NCBI RefSeq assembly: GCF_018143015.1
Contig: NC_054752.1
Coordinates: forward strand, 1,798,001 to 1,862,000
Length of the DNA stretch: 64,000 nucleotides
Source of the DNA: Lytechinus variegatus
Taxonomy: Eukaryota > Echinodermata > Echinoidea > Temnopleuroida > Toxopneustidae
Direction of reading: 5' to 3'
Every line of letters begins with the position of its first letter. Positions within the stretch are counted from its first letter, which is position 1. Shown here piece after piece: positions 30,396 to 63,669 of this stretch. The notes beneath the pieces are model-generated. The model was not told where the DNA came from and ran no database searches. It worked only from the letters and a program-made list of their open reading frames with translations. Both the position numbers and the translations under genes were made by a program.

Positions 30396-30669
30396 GTAAA
30401 TTATTTTACTGAATGGTTTTGTGGTCTCTTTGCATTACAATTATCATTAAATGCATTATCCCACTTATTTTGTGATGTAATTTCAACCTCTATGATTGAT
30501 TAGGTAATTGATTGCCTGCGTAAACATACCCATCGCACATCTGGCCAGTGCAACGCAGATGATGTGCTTGCGCCCATGTTACATGAAGAAAAATAAAATA
30601 AACTTAAAGAGGTTAGGGGCTTTTTTATCTCCATGACATTGATTTCACCAATATTTCTAGGTGAATGAA

Positions 30670-31077
30670 TTAAAGATAAATTCCAGTTCTGGTAACGATC
30701 TCAAAATGACTTTTTACAGAATCTAATTTAATGACCAGCCAAGTGTCTGTTTGTATGAATAAAATATATGTGCCAAAGGATTCCACAAGAAATTGTGTAA
30801 TTGCTGAGAAATAAGCAAAAGAAGCGCAGATTCGGTCACTTCCGTCGGGTCTTTGTTCCAGCAAAAATAATACACAGTCCCACGTGTGCCTATCTGTGTT
30901 GGCGATCTTCAGTGTGATCGTATTTCGGCTTAGATTTTATGATTTCACAAAGTTCAGTTTTGTAACTGTACCAGATCTAGATCCACGATGATATAATCAT
31001 ACTTAACCTTGGTTTTGCAGACGTTTTCACGAAATTAGTATTTTACTGCAACTAGCCTACTGATCATTTATCTTTAA
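30670..31077. repeat. TTAA-bounded MITE, copy 1
   Basis: The ends TTAAAGATAAATTCC and ATTTATCTTTAA are inverted. A diverged copy in the same orientation is at 59085-59482. They share ATCTCAAAATGA, ACAGAATCTAAT, GATTTCACAAAG and GTACCAGATCTA. Confidence 0.8.
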
Positions 31078-38442: not shown

Positions 38443-38721
38443 ATGTTTTGGTCTAGTTACAACCGTCTATATCCGGACAATTCGGGAGCGAGCGGCAGTT
38501 TTAGCAGCCAAATGACTGACGACTTCGGAGGATACGTGGTGGTGGACTACTCCGACTCGGCATCGAGCTCCGCCGGTGGAGGCGGCGGCGGGCATGGCGG
38601 GGGGAGCGGGGGTGGCCGAGGAAGGGATGAAGAGCTTCTCCGAGATGCATATGACTTTGCATTGAAAGCTACGGAACAGGATAGCTTGGGCGAATACAGA
38701 ACTGCTATATTTTATTATGTG
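38443..38721 (+). CDS. CAPN7: CAPN7 exon 1: N-tail and start of MIT1
   Basis: The ATG at 38443 directly follows an in-frame TGA. A second in-frame ATG at 38512 (MTDDFGG) is an alternative start, and neither has a strong Kozak context. Residues 1-63 are low-complexity with poly-Gly and no counterpart in the vertebrate protein, which begins at the MIT helix. The MIT domain then starts ([19 protein letters not shown]) and runs to FYYV before GTAAGT, phase 0. Confidence 0.85.
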
Positions 38722-41700
38722 GTAAGTATGGCAGTGCCTAGACAGCTGCCAGCCGGCAGCTGTCTGTTTCGAGAAGTTTTTTTTATTGACATTTAAAATT
38801 TTTTATTTTATTTTTTATTTCTCCTTTCGCCCCCGAGATTTTTACTTTCCTTCCAAATGATCTAGCCCTAAATAATGTAGATGGGATACAACTTCATTTC
38901 CGACATTTCTACGATATTGATTTCATTTTTAAACAAGAATTCATCAAAAAATCAAGAAATATATTATGAAAAGTCGGAAAACTTGCCACCGTGTTTACGT
39001 TGCCATCTTGATTTCATTGTCTTTTGCTTTAAGCACGCATATCGCGTGATAAGGGGTTACAATATGGGCCTAGGCCCTAGTATATCAAGATTGTCATACA
39101 AAATAGTGGTTTGACATGTAACATTGTCAAAAATGTTTTCCAAATTTGATTCAATTGCCATTAACAATACATGGAGTAACTTAACAATCCAATGTCATGA
39201 TTGGTTATGAAAGCATGGATACACACTGTAGTAGCATAACACTTTGTCATGACATTGGATTCTTAAGCTAACCCCAATAGGAGCAATAATTAACAGAGTA
39301 GACTGATTTGTGTCATTTGAAAGCTGGGGCCCATTTGTCAACACCGTCAATGTAAAAAATCTGACTTTTTTTATTAATAGGTTATAGTGAGCTATGAGTA
39401 CGTTAACCGTTTCATGAAGCCCTCTCTGTCAAGATTGGGAAAAGTGCTCTTGCTCTTAAAGCAAGAGGTACAATGTACAGAGCATCCTGCTTCGCTAAGA
39501 GAGGAGCATGTTTTTTTTTTTTTAGCTGCACTTACATGTAGTAACTTTGTAGAATCAATTAAAATGGCACTGTACATACTCCACACCAGACCTGCCAAAT
39601 ATTATAGTACAACAATACACCAGTCATTGGACTGTGCTTTATCAGAAGAAGAAGTCCCAACAACCAGACTGAATATTTATGACGCCTCCGAACATGTCAT
39701 AACTTCTTTCCTAATGACGTAGTGGCATCATGTCTAGGTAGACTACATTACAGTATGACATGCAAAAGTGCCTCATAATTTGAAAATTATAATCTTACGT
39801 AATCAATCATAGAAGTTCAAATTGCATTGCAAAACAAGTGGGATAGTCAATTAGTTATTCAATAATAATTGTAATGCACAGAAACTGTTAAAATTATTGG
39901 TAAAACACCACAAAACCATTCATTTTGAAGTAGTAAAATAATTGAAATGAAGATTCTGCCATGTCAGGCTATCCATAACTGGACTCGTATTCCTTGTTTT
40001 CAGACCCTTATCAACATTTTGATAAATTCTTTCTCTAATCTATGCATAAAATTTTTTAAATCCTATATTTCTGTATCTGAAGATTTAAACAATGTATGAT
40101 GTTTGGAATCATAAATACTGTAAATTATCAGGATTTTACAAAGGAAACCTACATGTATTATGGTTTACCTCTGTAAACTGTTAAAATTCAATATCTTGCC
40201 CGTCCCCGGGGTTACCCATCTCAACGTCCACATGTGATTTTTAGTCTTGAAATTAATTATTCATTTCATTTTCTCAGGAATTGAATGCTCCAGTCTTCAT
40301 GGTTTAAGTATGTATGATGCATAATTTGCCTCTGTCATTATTTTGATAAGATTTATTCCCAAATTCATCACAATAATTAAAAGTTTTATCATAATTTTGC
40401 TTTTTGAAAACTACATGTATGCCCTTTTGACTAAAGCTATGTCTCGTCTGCTCTTTTGGCCAATAGTATCAATATTAAGGGATTCTAGTTAAGTTCAGTG
40501 AGATTGGTTGGTGGATAAAGATATGACTGACTTGTCTGGGAGGCGTTTCATCAATATTTTCGTCCGACAAGTTGTCAGATCTGACAACTTTCCTGGATTC
40601 TGATTGGTTGAGAAGCACTGTTACTACATGTATAGTAGAGCATGATCGGTTAAGGGTTCGCATTGAGGTGAAAAAATTTTTTTAAAGTACTTTTATCAAA
40701 TTTGCTTTTGAAATAATCTTTGATATCTCAGGTTTCAAAAAACTAAGTTTCATGAAGATTGATGATTCCGAAAGTACTGGAATAGTCCATTTTATTCATG
40801 GGGGTGCTGCTACCTCTCATCACGGACGGACATTTCTACTCAAATTAAAATTCACTCTAGTTTTATTGTTTTTAAAGTTACTCTAATTTGGTTTGGATGT
40901 TCTTGGACTCTGAACATTACTCTATTATCATACATAATATAGTAGAAAAAAAATATTGGGAAGTAATTTTTTTGGTAGGTGTTAACATTTCCATTTTGAA
41001 ATTTCCGTCCGTGATGGAAAAAAAGATGAAAAGTTATTTTATTCTTTATCAGAATAGAAATAAAAAATAAAAAGGTTTAGAGGTATCTCTCTAAACGCTG
41101 TACATCATTTTATTTGAACATGGCAGAAATCCATACATTTTATCCATATCATAAACTAAATCAAAAATGATCACGGACGGACATTAATTTCATCACGGAC
41201 GGACAAAGTTAATTCACTCAAATGAATTTCACTCTAGTTTTGTTTTCAAAGTTACTCCAATTTTTTTTATGGTCTTGCACTCTGAACATTAATCTATCAT
41301 CAAACATAAATTAGTAGGAAAAAATATGGGAAGTAAACTTTCCTTGTAGGTTAACATTTCCGTCCGTCCGTGATCATTTTTATTAAGATAATGTCTATGG
41401 ATCCAGCTTTTTATTCTTTGTCAGAATAGAAACAGAAATAAAAGTGTGTAGAAGTATTTCACTGGGCACTGTACATCATTTTATTTGAACATTGCTATAA
41501 AAATCCATACATTTTATGCATATAATAAATCAATCAAAAATGATCACGGACGGACGAGTGAAATACTTGTGGAAAGATTTTTGTATGCAAATGAGAAACT
41601 TTGCTGAGCAGATTATGAATTTAATTTTAGCTTCTAATTGCAGTGAAAAATGGCTCTGAGAATTATTCAGAACTCAAATGGAATAAATCTACAACTCTTC

Positions 41701-47700: not shown

Positions 47701-50700
47701 TTCATGTACCTGGTAATATAGGAGTGCCTTGAGCACCTACATGTATTAAGGTGGATGCGTGCACGATACAAATCCTATATATTTATTTTATGTACTCAGG
47801 TATATTGCTCATTCAGGGAAGTAGTAGAATAATTTGAATATATGTTCTCTAATTTCAAATCTTAGAGCAGAGGCGTTGAAGAAGAAATCCGTCACCAGCA
47901 GTCTACCATCCCCTCCAAGGGACAAGCTTTCCACCAAGAACCAGAATCTACCAAACGATAATCCCGTTCTAAACCTCCCAGAAATACCCAATGACCTTCC
48001 CAGTCTAGACAATGAGACACCCTCCTCTGCTACTGGTAAAAACACCCCTAAGGAGAATGGAAGAGGCAGGAGTACTAGTGGATCTGCGGGCAGTTCCACT
48101 ACATCCGGTAGGGGTGGTGGTGGTGGTGGCAGTGGAGGTAGCAGTGGAGGAGGAGGTGGTGGTGGTAAATACACTCCAGAGGAAATCGCTGTTCTCAGGT
48201 AGGGACAAATCTAAATGAACAACAACAAGACATATCAGGTTAAGCATTATTTCCAGCCTTCGTGAAAAAAAGTTTGAATAGAAAAAGAAAAGAACAGCTC
48301 AAACGTCCTTATACATTGTACATTAATATGAAGATAATGATATAATAATAATAGAATAATAAGTACATGTACTACCTGAGTAAGTCTGGTTCTCATATCA
48401 CAGCATTTGGTTTATATAAACTGTATCAGATACTACATCAACACTCTATCTCATTTTTTTTACTTAAATTAAATTTCCTAACATTTGATCTTGATTTTTA
48501 AAGCCTCCATTGTTCATTGCTATTTCTTGAGTTTACTATAGCTATGAATTTAAATGTATATATACTTCCACCATTGGTAAAGCGTTTAATGGAAAAAATG
48601 GATTAACAACCAATGATATTAGCCTTTTTGAACTACTGAAATATAAAACTGAAAGTTTCAGTTTAATAGAGATTGCTCGTCTTTTAGATACTGTATGTTG
48701 TATAATATTGTATCCCTAGTTGTATTTGTTTCTCTTGGCCCAAAGTACTTGTCCTGATAGAAGAATGCAACTGTCTCTATTTCACAGAAAAACCTCTGAA
48801 ATCAATGGACGGTCGTATCTGCCATTTATATCTCAAGCAGACCTCAAGGAGAGATTTGCCTACCCTGTGCCTTTCACGTAAGTCATTCTCTATTATTTTC
48901 ACTTTTATAGCTTTCCAAGGGTTATTGAAGTCTACTGATGCCTGTGAAAGGAATATTTTTCAATTTCTTTCCCTATTGTACCACATAACACTCCAAGGAA
49001 TGAGATCTACCCCTATTCAGCAATCCAGAGTTTTAAATTTTATTGTTTCCTCGCGGATTGTAGATGGCGGGCTGGGTGTTTCATAAAGCTGTTCCTAAGT
49101 TAAGAGCGACTTTAAGAACGACTGGTGATCGTTTCTTATGGTAAATGGTATATTCGTTAGCGATGGTTTAGCGATGGTTTTCAAAAAGGATCACCAGTCG
49201 TTCTTAAAGTCGCTCTTACATGCAGCTTTATGAAACGGCCCCCAGGTTCATCTACTTCATTTCTCTTATACCTCCCTCTCTCCACATAGCACAATTCAGT
49301 GCATCCCCTTCGTCAACACAGACCTTGTAACTCTCCTCCTCCACTTGCTCCTTCCTAATCTTTCTGTCTTTCACCTTCACCTTAGAGAAATATTTTCACT
49401 TGACATTCACTCATTTCTTCCTAAAGAGGGATTGAAGCTGCTGAATCATATGTCTCAAAGACTTTTCACAAGTGTCTCGGTGCAAGGCAAAGGTTGACAA
49501 AATGTTGCCTTGATGCTCTCTGTCTATCCCTATTAACAAGTGGAATGCGTTTCCCATGAAACTTCCAGATTCTGTTTATATATATATATATATATATATA
49601 TGAGTGTTTTTTTGTGTGTGTGTTAGTAATTAAATGATTGTCTGAAGGGTGTTGCAAGAAGATGTTTGCAATCAATCACAATTTTTTAATGCAAATTTAC
49701 AAGTGATTTATCATTTTGACTAAGTCTAATCAATTTACACTTGTTGATGCAAGAAGCAGACTATCAATGCATTGCAATTTTTCATTAAAATACATAACTT
49801 TCAATTGATTTTTAACCTAACCTTAACTCTCAATCAATTACAGGTTTCTTGTAGCACCCCATTATTGTTTTCCCTCAATGTTTTCTTGTGTAGTTTTTGC
49901 TTATTAACATGTACGTACATATATTTCAACATAGGGATAAAGACGGCAAGCTTGTCTTGTGCACTAAACAGAAGGATAGGTTAGGGAAGTGGGTTCGTCC
50001 ATCTGATATTTGCAGTGATCCTAAACTAATCTACGCCGTATCAAGCTTCAGTGTCAGACAGGTAAAATGCAACATTCAAGTGCAATAAACTTTTCAAGTA
50101 CAAGTTAAGTTAAAGTTCACATTTTGAGTTTAAGATTTTTCAAATGATGTTTTGTGAATTCCTAAATCCTAAGAGCTAGCCATCTAGATCACCCATGTTG
50201 AGTGTAATGATATACCATCAGTACTGCCCTTTGATTTACCAGCCAAAGGGTCAAGGTACCTTTTTAAGAAAGTTACAAATTCCTTATAATTGTGTATAAA
50301 ATGGCAAATGGAAGTTTGTCCTTATCATTTGTCAGTTTGTCCTCTGATTTTATAATCTCCTCAGTACTATTTATCTTGTCGATGAAAGAGCGCCGTTAGA
50401 AAATGTTTTTTCGCTCGTGGTTCAGAAACGCCCTCACACAATGCCCTTATGTATGCTGCTAAGGGCGTTTTTGCATTCATGCAATGTACAAAAGTGTGGT
50501 GTTAAGGGTGTTCTTGTACCGATACAACGTATTATCCTTGGTAAGAAAATATCAAAATTGATTTCTCTCATACAGGAAGTATGCAGAGATGTTGATCTCT
50601 TGTCATTGGAATATCAAGTGGGTTGATAGTATCACTTATGCATTTGGAAACTTTGATAAAAAAAATAAAAATGAATCAGTTATTATCCACAACTCATCAA

Positions 50701-53700
50701 ATGTACAAAGGAAATGGGTAAATTATCTTTAATCAGTTTACTAGATCAGATATGAGTGTTTAAAGTAACTTCATAAAATTTCTTTTACAGACAATTGTTC
50801 AGGACTGTTCATTCCTTGCATCATTAGCAATATCAGCCAATTATGAACGAAGGTTCAAGAAACATCTACTTACAAAGTAAGTTTATTTTTGTCAACATCG
50901 CTCTTTCTTTCTCTCATTCTCCATCTCTATCCCCCTGTCTTACACACATATATATGCACACTCTCCCGTACATATTTCAATGATCATATCTGTTATACAG
51001 AGTTTCGGAACTGCTTATAATGCAAGTTATGTTTAACAAATTGTGTATTATAGATTTATCATGGAAAAGCCTTCCAGTCCTTACTTGGTTAAATGAGTCC
51101 CTGTTTCCCTTTGGGGCAGTATTATTTTACCCATATGCTTACGGTACTGAACCAATCTACAATCATTGTAAGAAGTTTGCGGCAATTGCTATGTCAATCA
51201 ATATCAATGTGTCTTTTACAACAATAGTTATTTCATTTCACTGATAAGATTTTTGTTCCACCCGTATCTTTGTGTTACAGCATTATATACCCCCAAGACC
51301 GTAGTCACAAACCAATCTACAATCCATGTGGGAAGTATATGGCTATTCTGTGGATCAATGGTGTCAAGAGAAAGGTAGAAATCCATGGATACCAAAGTAA
51401 CCTATCGTAGATATTTGTATATTGTTGTAGTGTAGCCTTGTTTGTTAGTTTTCAATAAAAACATACCCCCCCCTGGAACAAAAAAAGAAGGAAAAAAGGG
51501 ATTGCACAAATTATTCTGAAGGCTTTTTTTTATTAAATAGGTTCAATGATGGGAATTGGTTATGTTTTGAAACTGATTTAAGGAAGGAACTGTCTGAAAG
51601 TGATTGTCCCAAATAACTCTATCTTGCTGTGAGTCATATGCTATGCAATTGTGAGACTCTACAGAAATATTCAACCAAAACGTGCTAGCAGCATTGTCTG
51701 ATAAATTCAGTACAAGAGCATCTAAAGAGAAATCCTTCACATATCACCATTTTCCGTGAAGATGATAAAAGATATGATTGTTTTCACATCTCTCAACTAC
51801 AAAAATTTCCTTTTGGGAAATGAAGGTACGATAGCTTTAAACAAAGAAGCTACCACCAGGGACTTTTTTTTAGGAAAGAGTGATGTTAAGCTGCTTTCCT
51901 TTGTACCCATGTTCGACTCAGATGATGAGTTATGAGCTAATCTGCCTCTTTTAACCAGCTGGTTAGAAAGGTATGGCAGTTCAAAACCAAATGGAATGTT
52001 ATGAATCCTTTTTTTTTGCTTTAGTACCCATCAATGTTTCTTGCATTTTCTAGAGTTACAGCTCATCTCAACAATTTCCTGCTTCCATGCAGTTCCCTAA
52101 TCTCCTTGTGAAACATTTCTGAATATAAATAATGAATATATGTCTACTGTATTACTGTAGGTGATCATTGATGACTATCTTCCTGTGGACAAGCATGGCG
52201 ACCTCTTGTGTTCATTCTCTTCCAACCGCAATGAATTCTGGGTATCGCTGCTGGAGAAGGCATACATGAAGGTCATGGGAGGATATGATTTCCCAGGCTC
52301 TAACTCTGTAAGTTATGAGTCATTCAAATAGTAAATAAATTGGCAGGTTCAAAGATGACTCTCCTGGGCCCTGGTGCATATTGTATTAACTTTGCTATCC
52401 AAAGCTATTTTTAATGGAATCCTTGATTCTGATTGGCTGCTTGGCATTGTTGCCATGGTGGTTAGCATTGGATGGCAAAGTTACCGTAATAATGACTTTT
52501 ATGCAACTGGAAAATGGTTGGTGTTTCATACAGTTGTTTGTAATTTACCAGTGACTTAGTAGCTGACTACAGCACCTAATAAGAACATTTTCCAGCCAAG
52601 CATAAAGTGTATAAGACACCAACTTGTTATGTCTGGTGGTCTACCATGTCTAGCTCTGAAAGTTCAACCTTTTGATTAGATTTGATTTATTTATACCATC
52701 TCCACCCCTGCCCGTCATGGTAGACCCGTGGTGTAGTGGGTCTGACTCTTGCCTTATAAACAGAGGGTCGTGTGTGCGAATCCCACCGCGGTCTAGCGTC
52801 TTTTGGCAAGGTGTTAATCCACACTTTGCCACTCATGACCAAGTTGGTATAAAATGGGTACCCAGTAGGATTTGCAAGTCATTTTGCAGTGTACATGTAG
52901 CTTGTCCATTACTGTGTCCGCCTCAACGGCTACTGACTGGCGGATGTGCATTTATTGTATGCAGGAATGACTGATTGAATCCGATGACCGGGGAAATGAT
53001 ATATCTGTAAAGCGCTTAGGCACGTCATTCCGATGTAAAGCGCCATATAAAAGCGGATTATTATCATTATTATTACCCACCATCAAATTTCAAAGTACTA
53101 GTAACCTGTGGCATAGGAGAAGTATGCTGCATGCCTTTGGAAACAAAGAGTGGCACATAGACTTGTCAAGGAAATGATGCATGCATATGTAGAAATTGAC
53201 CAATTTTTATTCCCTGATTCAATAAGATTTTCACCCCTTTCATCTTTTAATCAGAACATTGACCTTCACGCCCTGACTGGTTGGATCCCTGAGAGAGTGG
53301 CCATTAGGATGAATTCTCCTGACTTTGATGCTGACAAGGTCTTCAAGAAGCTCTATGAGCGCTTCCACAGAGGGGACGTTCTCGCAACGGTTGCAACAGG
53401 GATGTTACCTGAGGCAGAGGCCGACCGGGCAGGACTTGTCCCTACCCATGCATACGCCATGCTAGACATTAGAGAGATACAGGTAAGTAGGTCTTTATGT
53501 GCTTAGGATTATCAAAGCTTTATCGATTGGAAGAGAATCTAAATACTTTGATTTAGAACTTATTTCAACATTGAAGTGAGGATAATTTCAACATTCTTGC
53601 AGCTTTAGCCATGTGAATGGCCATTCATGCATATCTTTAACCCTATATAGCCTGGGGCACTTATTATCCCCCCCCCCCTCGACATTTGTTTTGGTAATAT

Positions 53701-56700
53701 TTAACCTTGGATAGTTTGTACTATGATGTTTATTATTTTGTATATCAAGTCTTGCACAGTCATCAATTTCATGCTGTTCATGATCAGAATAGTGATCGCC
53801 AATGATTTCCATTGAAAATACTTATCACAATGTCAAGAATACTTGGGGTATTTAAAAAACCAAACTGCAATTTTGAAAGGAATTCTTTTTTTCTTAAAAG
53901 AATGTTTAGACCAAAATTTAGGATTTGTTTGCATATATGATTGACAGACAAATTGAGATTTTTTTATTTGATATCCTTGACAGGGAAAGAAGCTTCTTCA
54001 ACTCAAGAATCCATGGAGTCATCTTAGATGGAAAGGAAGATTCTCAGAAGCAGACACAAAGAACTGGACTCCTGAACTTCAGAAAGCTCTCAATTTTGAC
54101 CCTAAGAATGCACAGGAGTTTGATAATGGTTAGCCTGATTCTTTTACTTTTTAACACATATCACTTTATTATCTAACTTCTCTGTGCCCCTTTAAAGGAT
54201 ATTTAATGGTATTGCCCTGCCTTTGCTTAGCAAGGTATACTATATATGTAGAACACAAGCATTTTAAGGAATTCCTGCCAGGTTGGCTTACCCTTTTACC
54301 CTACCTGGGTCACATGTGTTTGATATACCATACTCTAGAGCCACCATAAGAATGAGACCAAATGGAAAGTAGACAGAGTGCCTGTGATTCAATGTAGACC
54401 TCCAGTAGTTTCTCAAATGAAATGATATGTCTCCTTTGCCATTTTATCTGAAGTTTCCTTCTTTCCACAGGTGTATTTTGGATTGATCTTGCCTCATTAT
54501 GCAACTTCTTTGATGTGATTTATATGAACTGGAATCCCTCCCTCTTTCCACATACCTATATAATGCATGGGTAGGTAGACTTCAGATTGTTATATCAAAC
54601 TGTTTGGTCCATATTCTGAATTCTAGTTTAATCTAAACCATAGTCTTAGTCTGGGAAACTTGTCTCTGTTCTTATACTGTAGCATCTTGGATAATACCTT
54701 GGATGTAGGCATTTAAAGTAATGGTGAAGAAAGTTATAGTTTTTTCCTCCAAACACGTATTGCACCTTCATTCAATGAATTGAATCGTATTGTGTTGTCA
54801 CCTGAAGCTGTGCAACGGTACTTTTTGGACAGTACAGAATGTTGCACATTCAGCCTGTCACTTGCTTGCGTACAACAAGCTAGGTAGGCGTTCAATAATA
54901 AATGCAGCATTTATTATGCACCATCTGTCTACTGAACTATTCTGAGGAAATGGGGGGGGGGGGGGGTGCTAAGGAAATACAGATAACAATGTTATAGAGA
55001 TTGTTTCAAGTTTGGCTACCCAATGTAAATAAACTATCAATGTAGACCATGGTTTGTGTTACACCAGAGTTCAGTATACAGGCCTTTGTTTGCTGAGCTA
55101 GAACCAGGTGAAAATAAGGACTATGGATCTTATGTGATGTTTCCTGTAAATTCTCCCCTAATACCTTTATGCTGAATTTGTTGAAAATGATTTTATTGGT
55201 CAGTTGTACTTCATAAGAATACAGATGCATGTATTACATTGAAATGATTTTATTGGTCAGTTGTACTTCATAAGAATACAGATGCATGTATTACATCGAA
55301 ATCTGTTGTTTTATACCTCAGTATGTGGTCAGCAGCAGAAGGCCCTAAGAAGGACAACATCAACATTGGTAACAATCCACAATATCGCTTAGAGGTCAAA
55401 GGTCTTGGTGCTATGTGGATTCTTCTCACAAGGCATATTACAGATAAAGTATGCATCAGTCAATAGTGAATTTTAGTTTTGTGTGTTAGCAACTCTGTTC
55501 TAGTTTAATGAGTACATTGTTAATATAAATAATTGACACAGTTGGGCTTACTAACACTGAAACCTTAGTTACTACATGGAGCTTGAATTTTGCCCCCTGT
55601 GATGAAATCAAACATTCACTATTTGGAATCTGTATTAATTTACTTGCTGAATCAAACATGATAAATGGATGGCATTTACATATAAATACCATTGTAGGTT
55701 TAGGCCACATATTCAAGACATGTTTGAGATTTCAAGGCATTCATTTCTGTGTTTCCATGTTTTTGTATCTTTAAACTTTGTTTTATACCCCACCCCCTCT
55801 TTCAATTTACGTTAGAATTAATTAATGCATCATATCCTTATCACATTCTTTTGCTAATTCAGGATGACTTTGCAGACAATAAAGAGTTCATTACTCTTCT
55901 GGTCTACAAAGGAGGAAAGAAGGTCTACTACCCAAGTAAGTTCAGGCACAAAATTTCTCTTTTTCAGTCAGAGATCATTTAATTTTCAATAAGTTTCAAG
56001 GCTGCTTTGACTAGAAATGATTTATTCAAGCTTCAAAAACTGTTATAATTTTGATATTGTCACCTTTGAACTGTTTAGATCAGTAGTTGTAACTTCAAAA
56101 ACAACGTTTTGATATTTCATGTGGAAATATTTATAGTTATTTGTACCAAAGAGATCTGTGTGTGTACATACAACTATTTGAGAATATCATTCTAACAAGG
56201 GCAATCTATTTGTATTACAGTAAATAAGACAATTAACATAATTGAACGTTTGTTGCATCACACAAACATGTAGTGGACTCGTATACTAAATTCAGTTTCA
56301 TATTATTTTTACACCATTCTATACAATGGAGGATTGAAACCGACCCTTCTTTCTGAAATGATTCTCTTTTTGAACTAATTGTAATTGACCGCCCACAAGT
56401 TGTTTTTTTCTTAGAGGCATTCACAATAAAGTTTGGAGAGGGGGTGCATTAAATTAATAATTTCTCTTTAAATACATGGGTTTTCGTAAGACTACAATTG
56501 ACAATAGAGCTGTTCTTTATGTTAAATGAAATTATATTTACCTTTACAATTCTAGTTTGTGCAAAAGCCATTGAAATAGTTTTTAAAAGTATCAAACTTT
56601 TAAAATTTACAATATTCAAACGTTATTTTCTGACTTTATCATACACATTCAGTGTTTAATACACACAGCTTGAATTTTACAAATATTCCTTAAAAATCGC

Positions 56701-59700
56701 AGAGAAAATACAAAATGCAAGATAAACAGTCTCATATTTGTTATTTGGAGTTGCGTGCTTGAAATGTTTTGCTTTGTCCTCTCTCCACCAACCAGATGAT
56801 CCAGGACCATTCATGGATGGAACCCGAATCAACAGCCCTCATTATCTGTGCAAGATGATAGTGAATGATAAGAGTTCATCAATCTATACCATCATAGTGT
56901 CACAGTTTGAGAAGAATAATACCATTCACTATACACTTAGAGTAAGTAAGATGATAGCAAATGAGAAGAGTTCATCGATCTATACCATCATAGTCTCACA
57001 GTTTGAGAAGAATAATACCATTCACTATACACTTAAAGTAAGTAAGATGATAGCAAATGAGAAGAGTTCATCGATCTATACCATCATAGTCTCACAGTTT
57101 GAGAAGAATAATACCATTCACTATACACTTAGAGTAAGTAAGATGATGGTGAATGATAAGAGTTCATCGATCTATGCCATCATAGTCTCACAGTTTGAGA
57201 AGAATAATACCATTCACTATACACTTAAAGTAAGTAAGATGATGGTGAATGAGAAGAGTTCATCGATCTATGCCATCATAGTCTCACAGTTTGAGAAGAA
57301 TAATACCATTCACTATACACTTAAAGTAAGTAAGATGATGGTGAATGATAAGAGTTCATCAATCTATACCATCATAGTCTCACAGTTTGAAAAGAATAAT
57401 ACCATTCACTATACACTTAAAGTAAGTAAGATGATGGTGAATGAGAAGAGTTCATCGATCTATGCCATCATAGTCTCACAGTTTGAGAAGAATAATACCA
57501 TTCACTATACACTTAAAGTAAGTAAGATGATGGTGAATGAGAAGAGTTCATCGATCTATGCCATCATAGTCTCACAGTTTGAGAAGAATAATACCATTCA
57601 CTATACACTTAAAGTAAGTAAGATGATGGTGAATGAGAAGAGTTCATCGATCTATGCCATCATAGTCTCACAGTTTGAGAAGAATAATACCATTCACTAT
57701 ACACTTAAAGTAAGTAAGATGATAGCAAATGAGAAGAGTTCATCGATCTATACCATCATAGTCTCACAGTTTGAGAAGAATAATACCATTCACTATACAC
57801 TTAGAGTAAGTAAGATGATGGTGAATGATAAGAGTTCATCGATCTATGCCATCATAGTCTCACAGTTTGAGAAGAATAACACCATTCACTATACACTTCG
57901 AGTAAGTAAGATGATGGTGAATGAGAAGAGTTCATCGATCTATACCACCAGTCAAATATATGTATATTGCTGTACACATGCATGATCCCAAAAAGGCAGT
58001 TAAAGGGGTGTTTTTTCAGTTTTGCATGTGGGCCGCAAATGTGTTTAAGGTATGTTTTTTCCCCAAGCTTTTTTCCCTTGGGCTTTTTTCTCGTTTCTGA
58101 AAAGTGTTCAGTTTCTTCCCGAGGGGGGGGCATACCCAGCATGAATATGGTTTTGTCTATTTTTAAGCTTATTGTAGGCAAGTAGACCATTACGTCAAAC
58201 CCATGTTAGGGGAAAGACCGCAGTTCAGACTGCAAACTGCGGTATTAGACCCCAAATTGTGTTTGAGATCATTTCCAAGCCCTGGGGGCCGTTTCATAAA
58301 GCTTTTCGTAAGTTAAGAGCGACTCTAAAAACGACTGGTGATCATCGCCAATGGTGTGTACCATTTACCGCTAGACAGGATCACCAGTCGCTATTAACTT
58401 ACGAACAGCTTTATGAAACACCCGCCTGATCAACCCCGCTTGGCCAGGTAATCCCGCTGTTTCAATTTCACCTCCACAGGCCAGATTATGAGCGATGAGC
58501 CAAGGATGAAATGATAAACAACAGCTATGCTATTACGTAAGACTTCTCTGCCTGTAGTAGGACCTTCGGAATGAAATTATTGTATTCGATATTTAATCAC
58601 GTTTTCAAAGGCATTTGTATTCAGAAATTCAATGTTAGTCCATTTTCAATTTTGAACGAAGAAAATCGACCTCGAAATAAGGAAAGTAAGTGAATAAAAA
58701 ATGGCGGCATGCTTTGCTGGGACCTTGCTCGGGCTGTTATGTTATCTTCGGACCGAGGTCAAGAAACAGGTGTTTTGATACTTACTTGGGCAGTAGGGTT
58801 TATCGTACTGGAGAAGAGAATTGAAAAACCATGGAGTAGGTCCATGGAAAAACTGGGGTATAGTGTTCTGAAACGGAGGTTTTCGTCATGCACAACTAGT
58901 TTAGGGTTCTTATTCTGGCGACAACTTGTTCAGCTTCCAAAAAATGGGTAAATGAAGCCCACAAAAAGCTTGTTTAGGGGGTTATTTTGTACACAGAGAA
59001 AAACTCGTATAGTGGGTGTTTGGAAATAATTTGGCCACGCGTGTGTACAGCAATACATTTGACCTCCCCCCCCTGGGCTTTACCATTAAAGATAAATTCC
59101 TGTTGTGGTAACAATCTCAAAATGAGTTCACACAGAATCTAATAAAGTTACCACCAAGTGTTTGTATGTATAAATAAAAAATATGCGCCAAGTGACTCTG
59201 GAAGAAAATGCATAGCTGCTGAGAACTGAGAAAAATAAGCACAGAATTCAATCGAATGCCATGTATTTTTCCAAGCAATATAAAAACACTGTCCCACATG
59301 TTTTTTTGTGTTGGTGGTCATCAGAATTATTGACTTTGAGCTAAGATTTCATGATTTCACAAAGATAAGTTTACAATAATGTACCAGATCTACATGTAGA
59401 TATATGATGATATGGTAAAAGCTTACCTTAATTTCAAAGACTTTTTCATGAAATAATTGTTTGCTGCAATTTTTATCTTTTACCTTTGAATTATCACAAT
59501 TTGAGTAGAATAACATGAGCACTATACACTAAGTGTAAGATTATGCAGATTATTTCACAGATGTCTTTTTTAGGGATGTAAGCTTAAGTTAAGAATAATT
59601 ATCCAACAAATTTCAGAGATGCAGCTTGATCATGTTTTTCCTGAAATATTGAATTTTCATATCGAGCAAACTTAAATAAAGATGAGGATAAACCTGCTCT

Positions 59701-62700
59701 TTTTATATACATCAAACATGGAAACCTGTGACTCTATGGGGCTTCAGAGATACAATCTCCAGATTGGAACCAAAGATTTAAACCTGGATTGGATCTCAAG
59801 CTGCTATAAACGAAAATATTGCATAAATTATATAGATAAGAAAATTGAGTTGTACATAAAAATAAATGCAGTTCTTGTATTGTTTTTTTTTTGCAGCTCA
59901 GGAGGTCTACGTGATTAGCTGTTCAAGTTCAAAGATAATTTTGATTCAGCCAGTTACTATTGAGGCACAAGAAACCATATCAGTGATGATGTTAGTACAG
60001 TGTCCTATTTTTTTCTTTTTTTTTCTTGTTAACTCACAGGCGTATGGAACATGTGAATTCAAGCTATCAAAGATCGTGGATCCTTACAAGTACACTAAGA
60101 ACGTAAGTCATAACAGACTTGTTATTTAGATATTTGAATATGCTTTACATGTACGTAAAGCATATTATGTTATTTTATGTTATAATAAAATTGAATAAGT
60201 TTAAAAAAAATCTTTTTACATTTGTGCTTGCATATAAATGAACTTTTGGATATGATTGTAATGATTATAACAAATATTTTAAGAAATATTGATTTTGAGA
60301 GAATTTTCATTTATTTGTATTTTTTGAATATTTTCTTCATGGAGTTTGATAACATGTTCTAAAAGGAGCACTAAGCTAGACCAGAGACCATTTATGTGTC
60401 TAGTGTGCAACACTACACAGTTACAATAATCTGAGATGTCCCAATAATTAGTTCTCTTCTTCACTTTTGTAGTATAGAAATGGTAGAAAAGAATGAAGGG
60501 TTCTTAAGTTAATTTTGAAAGTAATGAACAGTATTAACCCTAAAAAGACTGGGGGGGCTGATTCAGCCCCCCCCTTGACATTTTTCGCGATAGATCTGCC
60601 GCGCGAAATTTTTTGACCGCGTCCCTTGCTGACTTTTTAATTTCAAGTCTCGCGCAACTTTTGAGACCAAAATTGTGACCCCCGGGTACGCGGTTCTAAA
60701 ATTACGCAACATTTCGTAAGTGCATGCAGACCCAAAATTACTCAAAAACGTTAATTTGTGTACAAATCCAATGCAAATAGTGTTCTTAGCCAAAATTCAT
60801 AAATGTATCATTATTTTTCCTTTTACTGCTTAAAATCAATTAATTTTATCTTGTTTATGGTCAAAATAAAGTCCCTGACAATTTCCATTGAAAAAACAAT
60901 AAAAAACAAAAAGTCGAAAAACAAAGAAATACATAAGAAATTTAGAAAACAATAGAATACATAAGAAAATAAATGTGATTTTGAATTTTTTTAAATCAAG
61001 TCGATCAGATGCCTACTTACAGTATGTGAAACAAAAATTAGCATTTCAGGGGCATTATTTATTTAATTAGAGCAAACTTATGATTTTACGCATAAATTAG
61101 CATAATTAATGAGCAATGAGATTTTTGCAGAATTTGATGTTATAGTTTTGTAGATAATGCCATGGGTAACGCGTGTGCCAATTTTCGTCGCGATCGCGCG
61201 ATCGACGGCCGAGATCATAAGGGGGGGCTGAATCAGCCCCCCCAGTCTTCTTAGGCGTTGAAATAGCCCAGTCTATTTAGGGTTAATACTGCAATGGGAT
61301 AAAAAGAGAATAAGTGAAAATATCAATTATAAATTGTCATAATCATTTTCTTAAAGTTACTTCAATGTTTAACCCTAAAATGGCCGGGGAGTTGAATCAA
61401 CCCCCCTCAACATTTTCGCGATCATTCCGCTGCGCGAAGTTTTTTTATCGCGCCACTCGCAGAGTTTATACTTTCAAGTCTCGCGCATCTTTTGAGACCA
61501 AATTTATGACACCCGAGTACGCTGTTTCGAAATTACGCAACATTTCGTAAGTGCATGTCAGACCAAAAATTGTTCTAAAATGTGATATTGTGTAGAAAGT
61601 CAATGCAAATTGAGTTTTCTCATCTTATTCATAAAGATATCATTATTTTTACTTTAGACAGCTGAAATCAATTGATTTTAGCATAATTATGCTTCAAAAC
61701 GGTTGTGCAATAAATCTGGTGAAAAAAACAAAAGGTTGAAAAACAAAGAATACATAAGATATTCTTAAAACGATAAAAATCATAATTGATTTCCAAACTG
61801 AAGTTTTTTTAAATTGCGATTGTAGAATGCTACAAAGAATATTTTTACCAAAAATTAGCATTCTAGGAGTTTTAATTTGTGAATTAGAGCAAAAAATATG
61901 ATTTATGCATAAATTAGCATAATTAATGCATATAAAATAAAATCTCATTATTTTGGAAAATGCTACAATACAGTCTTTTAGATTACATCCCACACTACCA
62001 GCGTGCAAATTTTTGCGGCGCTAGTGCGATCAGCGGCCGAGATCTCAGGGGGGGTTGAACCCCCCGGTCACAGAACAGCCAAAAAAGCCCGGCCTAGTTA
62101 GGGTTAAGTTGTTCAAAATATTAGCAACAACATGTAGAGGGAATGTGAATTGAATTGAATTTATTAATTGTCTTCCACAAAACAAAAGTTACGTATGAAT
62201 CTTCGTATTGCTCACATCTCATAATACACATAAAATATATTAACCAAAAATACAAATAATCAAATATAAAAGAAAACAATTCGAAGGGCATCAAACTAAA
62301 CATTTCATATTTCTGTTGAGGTCCTGGAAGAGCAAGTTAAACATGTATGTTATTTGATGTCCCCTGGCCCTCATAGTAATGGACTTAAGCAATCAATTGA
62401 TTAAAAGTACATGACAACAATCATATGTATACATGTACATGTATATACAGTATATAAATCAGATGATTGCAATAAATTTGTGGAAAGACAGAGTAAAAAA
62501 AAAAAAATTAGATATTTTGTAATATCACTTTTGTGTTATTTGTGGCTACAACTGTACCAAATTAGATCGACCATACATGATAATACTGAAACATCAGCAT
62601 AATTGGTTTATAACAGATTACTGGTGAATGGAAGGGCAAGACGGCAGGAGGATGTGCTAATAACAGAGAAACATACGTCAACAATCCAATCTATCAAGTA

Positions 62701-63669
62701 TGCCTTCAAGATCATACCAGAGGAAACTCATTGCTTATAGACCTGAAAGGACCAAAGTAAGTCATAGAAGGTGGGACGGGTTATTGTTTTTAGGAGAATT
62801 TAAAAGGGATGGTGATCAAGTTGTTACGGGGGGCAACAGGGAGGGGGCTGTGAATACATTCGCCAACAATTCAGTCTACCAAATATGTTTTCAAGATTAC
62901 AGCAGAGAATACACATTGCTTATAGACTTCAAAGGACCAAAGTAAAAGTCATAGAGGGTGGGATGAGTGATTGGTTTGTGATCAGATGGGGGGGGGGGAG
63001 GCCTGGAGGGAGGGAGCTGTGAATACATTCACCAATAATTCAGTCTAATAAATGAATTTCAAGATTGCACCAGAGGAAACTCATTGCTTATAGACCTAAA
63101 AGAACCAAAGTAAGTCGTAGAGGCCTGTATGCTGATGTCTGGTTTAACTTTAACCATGTTCTAACTGTGGGCTTAAAGTATAAGAAGCTGACAATCTCAA
63201 AACTTTGTTAACACTGTATCGTTTACTGTGCTCATTCATCATGTTTTAATGATGAAGCAAACTGTTTAAGCTACATTTTACAGATATTAGTCGAGTGTCA
63301 TTCGAGCCAGCCTATTGAACCTGTACCATGAGAGATTTATTTCATAGTTGGCTTTCCATAGTTTAACCTCAACTTTAGACCACCATTAGAATATAGACAA
63401 TTTTTTTTCTAATGATGAGGATGATAGCAAAGTCAATGAAAATGACAAAAATGATGATGATGGTGCTGGGACAAAACTCCCTGTTGTTGAAATAATTTTA
63501 ATGATAATAATATGATGGCAGTAATGCATTGATGATAAGCTTCCTTATTCAATTCTTGATCATTTCTTATGATCCTTAGGAATTACCATGTAGGGTTTGA
63601 AGTTATATGTGTCTCGTCAGAAGGGAAAGGCAGCACACGATTTGAGAAGAAGATGAGTGGAGACTACCG
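38443..63669 (+). CDS. CAPN7: Calpain-7 (MIT-domain cysteine protease, PalB-like), 3' end outside window
   Basis: Nineteen exons are visible: 38443-38721, 43532-43637, 44699-44880, 45548-45612, 47866-48198, 48788-48877, 49935-50061, 50791-50876, 51281-51374, 52161-52307, 53255-53482, 53984-54128, 54471-54570, 55322-55448, 55863-55935, 56796-56941 (or later donors to 57901), 60040-60102, 62617-62756, 63580-63669. All phases agree, giving about 873 residues with the shortest exon 16. The order is a Gly/Ser-rich N-tail, two MIT domains (about 64-128 and 135-210) that in the family bind ESCRT-III tails, a poly-Gly linker, the calpain protease core (about 322-660), and C-terminal beta-sandwich domains. 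Cys400, His568 and Asn588 form the triad. As recalled, human CAPN7 (813 residues) has the same 168 and 20 spacing. There are no EF-hands, as expected for this atypical calpain. Family role: cytosolic/endosomal proteolysis linked to ESCRT and receptor sorting. Exon 16 carries an exceptional repeat. Confidence 0.96.
39960..40526 (-). repeat. Dispersed ~600-bp repeat, copy 2 (inverted to 29040-29650)
   Basis: The reverse complement of 29040-29650 runs through here. Landmarks are GGTTGGTGGATAAAGATATG, TCTCGTCTGCTC, CAACGTCCACATGTGA and ATGATGTTTGGAATCAT. It lies in calpain-7 intron 1 and directly abuts the next element. Confidence 0.75.
40527..43235. mobile_element. 2.7-kb foldback element with recurring CACGGACGGACA motif
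   Basis: The left arm (GGAGGCGTTTCATCAATA, TCCGACAAGT, GCATGATC) is matched in inverted order by the right arm (GATCATGC, ACTTGTCGGA, TTTCATGAAACGCTCC). Inside, TCACGGACGGACA or its complement occurs at about 40821, 41003, 41171, 41189, 41360, 41541, 42922 and 43105. The stretch 40815-41183 is directly repeated at about 41190-41555 (shared words TTTCACTCTAGTTTT, GCACTGTACATCATTT-like). It has no supported gene and is in calpain-7 intron 1. Confidence 0.65.
43532..43637 (+). CDS. CAPN7: CAPN7 exon 2: end of MIT1
   Basis: It follows GTTCAACCAG and encodes [11 protein letters not shown] ... [14 protein letters not shown], the second and third MIT helices. It ends before GTAAGA, phase 1. Intron 1 (4.8 kb) holds the repeats at 39960 and 40527. 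Confidence 0.93.
43638..44698. other. CAPN7 introns 2, 3, 5, 7-9, 11-12, 14-15: no further features
   Basis: This entry is placed on intron 2 and stands for the plain introns. They are AT-rich, with poly-T, short G or C runs (44052, 44891, 53672) and no recognisable genes or long repeats. The only exception is the exon 9 remnant in intron 8. Frames seen there are short and lack any family signature. Confidence 0.6.
44699..44880 (+). CDS. CAPN7: CAPN7 exon 3: MIT2
   Basis: It follows CCATTTTAG and encodes a short linker and the second MIT domain ([20 protein letters not shown], then [15 protein letters not shown]). It ends before GTAAGT, phase 0. A run of 10 C follows in the intron. Confidence 0.93.
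45548..45612 (+). CDS. CAPN7: CAPN7 exon 4: last MIT2 helix
   Basis: It follows ACTATTTTAG. The residues [20 protein letters not shown] fit the final helix of the second MIT domain. It ends before GTAAAT, phase 2. Confidence 0.92.
45748..46065. repeat. Repeat element with internal direct repeat, CAPN7 intron 4
   Basis: ATTGGATGTTCCTAA ... TTCAAAAG ... GACTACCACAGA(G/A)TGTTACTT occurs at 45748-45810 and again at 45999-46065. The rest of intron 4 up to 46580 shows nothing recognisable. Confidence 0.5.
46584..46899. repeat. MITE (CCCATATTCTGAAGTC family), copy 1
   Basis: The left end GGCCCATATTCTGAAGTC with GGTTTAACTTAGACC is inverted against the right end GTTTAAGTTAAACCCGACTAT and ATACGGGCC. 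It is followed at once by another copy. Confidence 0.7.
46906..47216. repeat. MITE (CCCATATTCTGAAGTC family), copy 2
   Basis: It starts CCCATATTCTGAAGTC and ends AAACTGGACTTCAGAATA...GGGCC, inverted. Two copies of one family lie head to tail in intron 4. Further diverged copies are near 54604 and at 63128. Confidence 0.7.
47866..48198 (+). CDS. CAPN7: CAPN7 exon 5: linker with poly-Gly tract
   Basis: It follows TTTCAAATCTTAG and encodes AEALKKKS, a Pro/Ser/Asn-rich linker, a Gly/Ser tract of about 25 residues, and then [10 protein letters not shown], the conserved lead-in to the protease. It ends before GTAGGG, phase 2. The Pro-rich frame on the opposite strand is only the antisense of the Gly codons. 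Confidence 0.92.
48788..48877 (+). CDS. CAPN7: CAPN7 exon 6: start of protease domain
   Basis: It follows CTATTTCACAG and encodes [14 protein letters not shown] ... [11 protein letters not shown], a conserved calpain-7 entry sequence. It ends before GTAAGT, phase 2. Confidence 0.93.
49074..49244. repeat. Palindromic MITE (TTTCATAAAGCTG family), copy 1
   Basis: GTTTCATAAAGCTGTTCCTAAG and TTAAGAGCGACTTTAAGAACG are matched by their complements ending GCAGCTTTATGAAACGGCCC. A related copy is at 58284-58425. It lies in intron 6. Confidence 0.8.
49576..49602. repeat. (TA)n microsatellite
   Basis: About 13 TA dinucleotides in intron 6. Confidence 0.9.
49647..49860. repeat. Foldback MITE (GGGTGTTGCA family), copy 2
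   Basis: It starts GGGTGTTGCAAGAAGAT and ends TTTCTTGTAGCACCCC. The TTGCAATCAATC and TCAATCAATTACAGG stretches are inverted. Same family as 5899-6118. It ends 74 bases before exon 7. Confidence 0.75.
49935..50061 (+). CDS. CAPN7: CAPN7 exon 7: protease core
   Basis: It follows TTTCAACATAG and encodes [20 protein letters not shown] and FSVRQ, immediately before the catalytic Cys exon. It ends before GTAAAA, phase 0. Confidence 0.93.
50791..50876 (+). CDS. CAPN7: CAPN7 exon 8: catalytic cysteine
   Basis: It follows TTTCTTTTACAG and encodes [20 protein letters not shown]. Cys400 is the nucleophile (codon 50806-50808). It ends before GTAAGT, phase 2. Confidence 0.95.
51130..51190 (+). pseudogene. 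Decayed partial duplicate of CAPN7 exon 9
   Basis: The sequence ACCAATCTACAATCATTGTAAGAAGT here matches, in pieces, ACCAATCTACAATCCATGTGGGAAGT of exon 9. The frame reads [10 protein letters not shown] against [10 protein letters not shown]. It lies 150 bp upstream of exon 9 and has no clear acceptor, so it looks like a non-functional remnant. Confidence 0.5.
51281..51374 (+). CDS. CAPN7: CAPN7 exon 9: protease core
   Basis: It follows TTTGTGTTACAG and encodes [20 protein letters not shown] and WINGVKRK. It ends before GTAGAA, phase 0. The same residues in part (a related [10 protein letters not shown] frame) appear upstream near 51147-51180, a decayed duplicate of this exon. Confidence 0.93.
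52161..52307 (+). CDS. CAPN7: CAPN7 exon 10: protease core
   Basis: It follows TATTACTGTAG and encodes [20 protein letters not shown], then the calpain hallmark [20 protein letters not shown]. It ends before GTAAGT, phase 0. Confidence 0.95.
52720..53078 (+). repeat. tRNA-derived SINE in CAPN7 intron 10
   Basis: The head has an A-box-like GTGGTGTAGTGGG (52728-52740) and a B-box-like GTGTGCGAATCCC (52771-52783). The body includes ACTCATGACC and ATGGGTACCC. The tail has GTAAAGCGCTTAGGC and TAAAGCGCCATATAAAAGC, then an ATT-rich end. The AAAGCGC tail is shared with the SINE at 1108-1598. The same strand as calpain-7. Confidence 0.8.
53255..53482 (+). CDS. CAPN7: CAPN7 exon 11: catalytic histidine
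   Basis: It follows CTTTTAATCAG and encodes [15 protein letters not shown] ... [14 protein letters not shown] ... [15 protein letters not shown]. His568 (53447-53449) is the triad histidine, 168 residues after Cys400. It ends before GTAAGT, phase 0. Confidence 0.95.
53984..54128 (+). CDS. CAPN7: CAPN7 exon 12: catalytic asparagine
   Basis: It follows TATCCTTGACAG and encodes [20 protein letters not shown]. Asn588 (54008-54010) is the third triad residue and the NPW motif is intact. It ends before GTTAGC, phase 1, a weaker donor than its neighbours. Confidence 0.94.
54471..54570 (+). CDS. CAPN7: CAPN7 exon 13: end of protease domain
   Basis: It follows TTCTTTCCACAG and encodes [20 protein letters not shown], then WNPSLF, the conserved close of the calpain core. 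It ends before GTAGGT, phase 2. Confidence 0.93.
54604..54730. repeat. Diverged MITE end (CCATATTCTGAA family)
   Basis: GGTCCATATTCTGAATTC and GTTTAATCTAAACCATAGTC resemble the left ends at 46584 and 46906. The right end could not be fixed, so the boundary is approximate. Confidence 0.4.
55186..55301. repeat. 57-bp tandem duplication beside exon 14
   Basis: TGATTTTATTGGTCAGTTG ... AGATGCATGTATTACAT occurs twice in a row, 57 bp apart, almost without difference. The second copy ends about 20 bases before the exon 14 acceptor, so it lies in the branch-point zone. Confidence 0.9.
55322..55448 (+). CDS. CAPN7: CAPN7 exon 14: first beta-sandwich domain
   Basis: It follows TTTTATACCTCAG and encodes [12 protein letters not shown] ... 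[11 protein letters not shown] ... [11 protein letters not shown]. It ends before GTATGC, phase 0. A 57-bp tandem duplication lies just upstream (55186-55301). Confidence 0.93.
55863..55935 (+). CDS. CAPN7: CAPN7 exon 15
   Basis: It follows TTGCTAATTCAG and encodes [20 protein letters not shown], then VYYP. It ends before GTAAGT, phase 1. Confidence 0.93.
56796..57901 (+). CDS. CAPN7: CAPN7 exon 16, with 11 alternative in-frame donors
   Basis: It follows CCACCAACCAG and encodes [18 protein letters not shown], then [20 protein letters not shown], matching one beta-hairpin of the second beta-sandwich domain. The ancestral exon end is most likely 56941, just before GTAAGT, phase 0. The last 96 bases with this donor are repeated, so the same donor recurs every 96 bp at exon ends 56941, 57037 ... 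57901. The frame stays open through all copies, so any end from 56941 to 57901 is possible. With 56941 the protein has normal family length. With 57901 it gains 320 residues. Confidence 0.85.
56852..57950 (+). repeat. 96-bp coding tandem repeat with embedded splice donors (11 full copies + 1 interrupted)
   Basis: Units start at 56852 and every 96 bp to 57908. Each encodes a 32-residue unit of type KM(I/M)(V/A)N(D/E)KSSSIY, then (T/A)[16 protein letters not shown](R/K)VS. The final VS and the next K are the donor bases GTAAGTAAG read as codons. Copies differ at only a few sites (IAN-E, MVN-D, MVN-E; T or A; R or K) in a mosaic order, implying recent unequal exchange or conversion. Copy 12 breaks off near 57950, and its 3' half is found in decayed form at 59490-59540. 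Confidence 0.95.
57951..59063. mobile_element. TIR element inserted in repeat copy 12
   Basis: The left end GTCAAATATATG with TATTGCTGTACACATGC and the right end GCGTGTGTACAGCAATACATTTGAC are inverted. It is about 1.1 kb, has no recognisable protein and contains a nested palindromic MITE (58284-58425). Confidence 0.7.
58284..58425. repeat. Palindromic MITE (TTTCATAAAGCTG family), nested copy 2
   Basis: CCGTTTCATAAAGC, TAAGTTAAGAGCGAC and GACTGGTGATCA are mirrored by TGATCACC-like, TTAACTTACGAAC and GCTTTATGAAAC. Same family as 49074-49244. Confidence 0.8.
59085..59482. repeat. TTAA-bounded MITE, copy 2
   Basis: Landmarks in the same order as 30670-31077 (TTAAAGATAAATTCC, ATCTCAAAATGA, CCAAGTGT, GATTTCACAAAG, GTACCAGATCTA). 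The right end is decayed (TTTTTATCTTTTACC). Confidence 0.75.
59490..59540 (+). pseudogene. Decayed 3' half of exon 16 repeat unit (copy 12)
   Basis: TCACAATTTGAGTAGAATAA ... CACTATACACT ... GTGTAAG aligns to the second half of the 96-bp unit. The Lys codon has become TAG and the donor is degraded. It starts almost exactly where copy 12 breaks off at 57950, so the 1.5 kb between them is inserted DNA. Confidence 0.7.
60040..60102 (+). CDS. CAPN7: CAPN7 exon 17
   Basis: It follows TTGTTAACTCACAG and encodes [20 protein letters not shown] in phase 0. This continues directly from the TLR end of exon 16, as in vertebrate calpain-7 (TVR then VYSAC). It ends before GTAAGT. Confidence 0.9.
60534..61286. 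mobile_element. TTAA-type nonautonomous transposon, copy 1
   Basis: It is bounded by TTAA with ends CCCTAAAAAGACTGGGGGG and ...CTATTTAGGG. The subterminal inverted GGGGCTGATTCAGCCCC and GGGGGCTGAATCAGCCCC form hairpins. It shares TTTGAGACCAAA and ATTACGCAACATTTCGTAAG with the next copy. It has no open frame of note and lies in CAPN7 intron 17. Confidence 0.75.
61369..62107. mobile_element. TTAA-type nonautonomous transposon, copy 2
   Basis: TTTAACCCTAAAATGGCC at the left and GGCCTAGTTAGGGTTAA at the right. Same order of internal landmarks as copy 1 (TCTCGCGCATCTTTTGAGAC, ATTACGCAACATTTCGTAAG, ATGCATAAATTAGCATAATT), same orientation, 83 bases downstream. Confidence 0.75.
62617..62756 (+). CDS. 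CAPN7: CAPN7 exon 18
   Basis: It follows GGTTTATAACAG and encodes [20 protein letters not shown], then [10 protein letters not shown] and LLIDLKGPK. It matches the WSGQSAGGC-N-PIYQ region of the family. It ends before GTAAGT, phase 2. Two decayed copies of it follow in the intron. Confidence 0.92.
62841..62943 (+). pseudogene. Duplicate of CAPN7 exon 18, copy 2
   Basis: The frame [20 protein letters not shown], then [10 protein letters not shown], aligns to the end of exon 18 ([24 protein letters not shown]). Its donor region is AAAGTAAAAG. The frame is open, but the first third of the exon and a convincing acceptor are missing, so it is probably not used. It is 185 bp from exon 18 measured at TTGCTTATAG. 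Confidence 0.7.
63010..63115 (+). pseudogene. Duplicate of CAPN7 exon 18, copy 3
   Basis: It is similar to copy 2 (AATACATTCACCAATAATTC, then CAGAGGAAACTCATTGCTT) and keeps the donor AAAGTAAGT. It has TAATAAATGA in the region that codes for VYQ in exon 18, so it cannot be translated. It is 167 bp from copy 2. Confidence 0.75.
63128..63398. repeat. Diverged MITE (CTGAAGTC family)
   Basis: ATGCTGATGTCTGGTTTAAC and TTAACCATG at the left are mirrored by CATAGTTTAACC and GACCACCATTAGAATATAGAC at the right. Related to 46584-46899. Confidence 0.5.
63580..63669 (+). CDS. CAPN7: CAPN7 exon 19 (last visible)
   Basis: It follows TTATGATCCTTAG and encodes [17 protein letters not shown] ... SGDY. It ends before GTAAGG, phase 2. 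By comparison with the family about 55 residues remain, in exon(s) beyond 64000. The window's final bases (TGATTACAG) could be the next acceptor. Confidence 0.92.

Follow-up and report, generated by a model that had tools for sequence, protein, structure and literature searches.

How is a gene spliced when the end of one of its coding exons, together with the splice donor, has been multiplied into a series of near-identical donors that face a single acceptor? A calpain-7 gene in the 64,000-nucleotide stretch of DNA analysed here (the window, C13:1798001-1862000, whose first base is position 1) raises this question. It holds a tandem array with 96% matches and 0% indels by TRF (Table 1), in which the unit consists of the final 90 bp of the exon at 56796-56941 and its 6-bp donor, GTAAGT, repeated head to tail. 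The array starts 90 bp ahead of the donor at 56942, inside the exon, and runs across that donor. Alignment of the units placed the consensus donor GTAAGT in 11/11 full units at an exact spacing of 96 bp (56942, 57038, 57134, 57230, 57326, 57422, 57518, 57614, 57710, 57806, and 57902). An 11-fold, in-frame repeat of an exon end with its donor had been proposed by the first-pass annotation of this DNA, along with highly similar, mosaic copies, and both descriptions hold. The units fall into seven types in the mosaic order a b c d e f e e e c g, and units 2-11 differ by a mean of 3.7 bases per pair. The proposed unit required a correction: exon end and GTAAGT are indeed repeated together, but as 90 bp of exon plus a 6-bp donor and not as 96 bp of exon followed by a donor. 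The in-frame repeated splice-donor array in calpain-7 is real.

Table 1. Features of the array, its flanks, and the neighboring exons (positions in the window).
Feature	Position	Strand	Details and basis
Calpain-7 exon (exon 16 of the first-pass annotation), shortest form, to donor 1	56796-56941	+	146 nt; phase 1 at the start and phase 0 at the end; splice sites and joined frame
Tandem array, period 96, 11.4 copies	56852-57947	+	TRF, unit alignment
Eleven GTAAGT donors	56942-57907	+	Unit alignment, U1 pairing, predicted hairpins
5' half of twelfth unit	57902-57947	+	Base identity to the 11 units
Stretch interrupting unit 12, read as one interspersed element	57948-59077	+	Both ends match L021:1197-1630
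Second interspersed repeat	59085-59469	+	73% identity to 30669-31051
Decayed 3' half of unit	59494-59545	+	Local alignment, translation
Next exon, 21 residues, phase 0 at both ends	60040-60102	+	Acceptor TTAACTCACAG; joined frame
Following exon, first full exon of distal beta-sandwich	62617-62756	+	Match to 2QFE
Decayed tandem copy 1, from the end of exon 62617-62756	62826-62942	+	Open frame, out of step with that of the exon; donor GTAAAA
Decayed tandem copy 2, from exon 62617-62756	63024-63110	+	Stops, gaps

Beyond the eleven full units lies the 5' half of a twelfth, which ends at unit position 46 and has 39 to 45 of its 46 bases identical to those of the 11 preceding 96-bp units. A genome-wide DNA search with the exon (869.6 Mb in 33 contigs, match counts being lower bounds) listed at least 12 matches, all of them within the array, that is, the exon, ten further units, and the partial one. 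Tandem arrays are classical sites of misassembly, and the copy number could be wrong or the expansion spurious. We consider such an error very improbable, as seven unit types in mosaic order, a partial unit at the flank, and an old, decayed copy of the unit farther downstream are unlike duplicated reads; the copy number itself may still be off. Tandem arrays are common in this genome: in a 200-kb sample made up of 20 stretches of 10 kb each, TRF gave 49 rows, some of them overlapping, at periods of 20 and above. In none of these 49 rows is GTAAGT present in more than one copy. The window also holds other minisatellites, at 11413-12211 and 16954-17913, with units of 152 and 163-198 bp (TRF).

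The few differences among the units indicate that the copies are recent or recently homogenized. The relic at 59494-59545, approximately 1.5 kb downstream, matches positions 51-96 of the unit and continues into the beginning of the following one. Its local alignment score was 50, versus a maximum of 31 in 500 dinucleotide shuffles, and it carries frame-breaking gaps, one in-frame TAG, and a degraded donor. The two halves of the twelfth unit are separated by 1546 bases, 779 of which match interspersed sequences elsewhere in the DNA compared (the window and L021, the stretch that holds the last exon of the gene). Within the interruption, 57948-58024 and 58904-59077 match one and the same relative, L021:1197-1630, and 58281-58423 matches a different repeat, at 49074-49246. 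The remaining middle of 57948-59077 had no match in the DNA compared, and we infer that it belongs to the same element. The copy at L021:1197-1630 shows clear terminal inverted repeats. At the left end of the element, the outermost bases of the relative's terminal repeat are missing, and a plain insertion is therefore unproven. The simplest reading of the sequence would be that old insertions broke the twelfth unit in two, after which its far half decayed while its near half continued to be homogenized with the array. The present copies have been homogenized recently; the ladder they belong to is older and comes from an earlier tandem duplication. The array had been described as young; this fits the present copies but not the ladder, given the relic and the split twelfth unit.

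The identity of the gene and the place of the array within it were assigned from domain and structure matches. The catalytic domain was recognized in the neighboring exons by a Peptidase_C2 match above its cut-off (E 1.1e-17), and the downstream exons matched the human calpain-7 structure 2QFE (E 2.4e-20), beginning at DPYKYTKN inside the exon after the array. The earlier assignment to calpain-7 agrees with these two matches. A Calpain_III match (E 2.7e-10) was obtained downstream of the array only. The exons at 38626 and 44761 look like candidates for the N-terminal MIT domains of calpain-7. 2QFE is the distal C2-like domain of calpain-7; since it aligns only downstream of the array, the array precedes the distal domain. 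The first-pass annotation had put the array in the second C-terminal beta-sandwich, which is wrong, as the alignment to the distal domain starts only at DPYKYTKN, after the array. The proximal C2-like domain presumably lies between the catalytic and distal domains, and the array exon falls there by position. From this position in the domain layout of calpain-7, we infer that the array forms the end of the first C-terminal beta-sandwich. The array exon had no usable PDB match: a search with it and its neighbor alone gave one match, at E 0.93.

Read in the exon frame, GTA AGT encodes V-S and runs into the next unit with no stop; the resulting V-S-K-M junction would occur only in proteins spliced from a donor past the first. 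All 11 exon ends are in phase 0, and no unit holds a stop codon. To assemble the reading frames, exon limits were taken from splice sites, and each of the 11 exon ends was joined to the exon upstream of the array (55863-55935) and to the exons that follow, namely 60040-60102, 62617-62756, 63580-63669, and the last exon in L021. The joined frames were open to one common stop codon for 11/11 donor choices and encoded 218 to 538 residues in steps of 32. These joins bear out the earlier statement that the donors are in phase 0, that the copies are stop-free, and that splicing from any of them to 60040 keeps the frame. Among the six frames over the array, its own is the sole open one, and the other five have 21 to 57 stops. 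Proteins differing by whole 32-residue steps, up to the 11 isoforms proposed by the first-pass annotation, could, in principle, be made from this gene.

Besides the acceptor at 60040, there is a further acceptor-like site ahead of it, TTTGCAGCTCAG (59902-60039), and the frame from this site onward to the 60040 exon appears open. From the site at 59897, a stop would be met at once. The best AG sites inside the unit (e.g., CTCACAG) are preceded by 62% pyrimidine, versus 75% at 60040, by what is a crude measure. Without any splice out of the array, the frame hits a stop at 57983. The exon measures 146 nt via donor 1 versus 242 to 1106 nt via the later donors. With the frame open throughout, the whole array could be included constitutively via the last donor, and the result would be a permanently enlarged calpain-7. 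This reading is the least credible of those considered here and extremely unlikely, as it calls for a 1106-nt internal exon that is spliced only at its end despite ten earlier near-equal donors, and donor 11, with a U1 pairing of -7.2 kcal/mol, is no better than the others.

The choice among the donors was examined through their predicted pairing with U1. Donors 1, 3, and 10 gave -8.0 kcal/mol and the other eight -7.2 kcal/mol; eight other donors of the gene ranged from -4.1 to -13.7 kcal/mol. Donors 3 and 10 equal donor 1 from -3 to +8, and the remaining donors differ from it by one exon base. The last three exon bases are AGA at donors 1, 3, and 10, CGA at donor 11 only, and AAA at the others. 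Donor strength was rejected as a selector, with only 0.8 kcal/mol separating the donors of the array. Donor 1 would be favored by its joint-strongest U1 pairing, by being transcribed first, and by defining the shortest exon. The same pairing and the same short exon are consistent with the array being intronic baggage, in which donor 1 is always used and the later ten stay silent because commitment to the first comes too early for them to count. When donors compete, complete silence of ten near-identical ones would be unusual, and here two of the ten match donor 1 exactly from -3 to +8 and the rest are one base away. We regard this reading as unlikely.

Around every donor, the RNA is predicted to pair with the beginning of the following unit in a hairpin that has the donor close to its tip (56912-57932). 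In 61-nt folds, donors 1, 2, and 9 have a weak hairpin (-6.4 to -7.2 kcal/mol) and the other eight a strong one (-14.1 to -15.0 kcal/mol). Three of the 11 were tested against shuffled sequences: donor 1 had a z of -2.0, donor 4 of -4.0, and donor 11 of -3.2. The mean unpaired probability of the donor bases was 0.78-0.79 at all 11 in the 61-nt folds, and it was 0.60-0.66 at donors 1, 2, and 9 versus 0.73-0.79 at the other eight in 121-nt folds. The donor bases are thus mostly unpaired and less free at donors 1, 2, and 9 in the longer folds, and a hairpin effect on donor use could go in either direction. The weak hairpin at donor 1 fits a preferred use of that donor; in these fold predictions, its lower freedom speaks against a hairpin that favors it.

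Coding constraint among the units was assessed over the 90 bases common to all of them, where 11 changes were found, 6 synonymous and 5 conservative (I/M, V/A, D/E, T/A, and R/K). Under simulated random mutation of all units, the synonymous count had P 0.019-0.047 and the mildness of replacement P 0.022-0.057; a score summing the two had P 0.003-0.011. With units 2-11 only, 5/10 changes were synonymous (P 0.05-0.10), and both criteria jointly gave P 0.004-0.013. As a control, the exon copy at 62856, which is spaced by 185 bp and is out of frame with its exon, gave P 0.003-0.014 on both criteria jointly. Its low P came from mild replacements alone, as 5/16 of its changes were synonymous (P 0.38-0.57). 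Two other exon copies gave P 0.26-0.42 and 0.08-0.12 on the joint criteria. Coding constraint as proof of translation was therefore rejected: an out-of-frame copy also passes the combined test, and the test was picked after the data were seen. For the same reasons, and as stop-free units are expected anyway (the chance of zero stops given 11 changes and no constraint is 0.58-0.76), we take the constraint signal as weak and non-specific. With that limit, the synonymous and conservative lean could reflect extra copies that are translated and constrained.

These results bear on whether the array is a working isoform ladder, in which several or all donors are substantially used, perhaps in a tissue-dependent manner, and selection acts on additional 32-residue units that are translated and fold. 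Such a ladder would account for donors that are intact in all 11 units, a unit of 96 = 3 x 32 with no stop and no indel, the synonymous and conservative bias, and donor bases that are mostly unpaired in all 11 predicted hairpins. We nevertheless hold it to be doubtful, if possible, because freshly homogenized copies would be intact anyway at the chance given above, because the out-of-frame copy scores as well as the array does, and because the split twelfth unit has decayed.

The 368-residue array exon alone was modeled with AlphaFold2 as a solenoid with a mean pLDDT of 90.3 and a pTM of 0.87. A Foldseek search with this model found no PDB match at E <=0.001, the best being 0.14. A control fold of the array's antisense frame, in which the 21 stops were treated as residues, gave a pLDDT of 83.7, a pTM of 0.80, and a similar strand pattern. 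The confident solenoid was rejected as evidence for a fold and is regarded as a repeat artifact, the control being nearly as confident; this agrees with PMC11795689. That the units form beta-hairpins is plausible.

Other exon ends of the same gene have been duplicated as well. The end of the exon at 62617-62756 and its donor occur in three tandem copies in all over 62671-63123, at spacings of 185 and 168. The end of the last exon and the sequence past the stop codon are duplicated in tandem with 80% identity (L021:730-893 versus 877-1038; 64730-64893 versus 64877-65038 in joined coordinates). A weak match at 51122-51187 is a possible decayed copy, upstream, of the exon at 51282-51374 (E 6e-4, 45% over 22 residues). 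Altogether, a nearby copy was found for 4/16 exon pieces tested, the array exon included. The decayed exon-end copies lie in introns or past the stop codon of the gene, which is what intronic baggage would look like and adds to the case for a donor 1 that is always used. Judging from these copies, exon-end duplications keep arising and are mostly lost. Together with the abundance of tandem arrays in this genome, the copies indicate that the process needs no special function. Two further duplications were seen in the region: a tandem one of approximately 370 bp in what is presumed to be an intron (40817-41182 and 41190-41555, 76%), and a direct pair of approximately 750 bp (60534-61286 and 61369-62107, 71%) with inverted relatives at L021:5138-5453, probably an interspersed repeat.

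On balance, we favor, with modest confidence, a minisatellite that grew from the coding end of an exon, with donor 1 used in most transcripts and a minority of longer, in-frame isoforms. As the sequence shows, a tandem duplication captured the final 90 bp of this calpain-7 exon together with the donor. Unequal exchange or conversion may then have multiplied and homogenized the unit. The last unit was probably interrupted, and the half beyond the break decayed as intron; this relic can be seen in the DNA, and the order of these events is our reconstruction. In the RNA, eleven near-equal donors would compete for the single acceptor at 60040. Donor 1, probably the most used, would yield the normal calpain-7, and a minority of transcripts would take later donors, which would extend the end of the first C-terminal beta-sandwich in frame by 32, 64, or more residues. 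By analogy with human IFI6, donor 1 would be expected to predominate, with a small number of longer forms. The decay of the far half of unit 12 indicates that the ladder is not wholly kept, and it may persist mainly because the frame renders a wrong choice harmless and not because all of its rungs are needed.

A more tentative idea, to which we give little weight, is that the array acts as a length dial. Donor choice and copy-number differences between individuals would together produce a graded calpain-7 series, each rung lengthening the protein by a 32-residue unit close to where the two C-terminal beta-sandwiches meet. The splice signal itself would code for the V-S linkers, and the hairpin at each donor would set the use of its rung. 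The locus is informative under either form of splicing. Eleven near-identical, in-frame donors facing one acceptor constitute a natural experiment on spliceosome choice, which is usually studied with constructs. If several donors are used, a minisatellite varies a protein by whole structural steps without frameshift; if only the first is used, the array gauges the strength of first-come commitment.

The closest known system is human IFI6 (6-16, G1P3), in which, as Turri, Cuin and Porter reportedly described in 1995, a minisatellite supplies multiple splice donors. The two loci share a minisatellite at an exon-intron boundary with repeated donors. They differ in scale, as the IFI6 unit is approximately 12 bp and adds a few residues, whereas the calpain-7 unit is 96 bp, takes up most of the coding end of the exon, and encodes 32 residues. 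Human calpain-7 (2QFE) belongs to the same gene family, and we know of no calpain, calpain-7 included, with an exon-end array. In IFI6, two downstream repeat units serve as donors and three mRNA species result, according to PMC4526556. Multiple donor use is thus reported there and would be a prediction for the calpain-7 array. The alternative tandem donors of the GYNGYN type (PMC1779574) likewise involve close competing donors and a subtle change in the protein; they are single donor pairs within one short motif, unlike the amplified array in calpain-7. Intron gain by tandem genomic duplication (PMC4974935) is similar in that a tandem duplication within a gene bears on exon-intron structure. 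It differs in that no new intron is evident in calpain-7, where each unit has a donor and the acceptor-like sites within units are weak. Among the matches listed from the openly licensed literature, no donor array with a unit this large and coding, or in a calpain, was found. We judge that the principle of a minisatellite supplying several donors is already known from IFI6, and that the larger, coding unit in calpain-7 is new.
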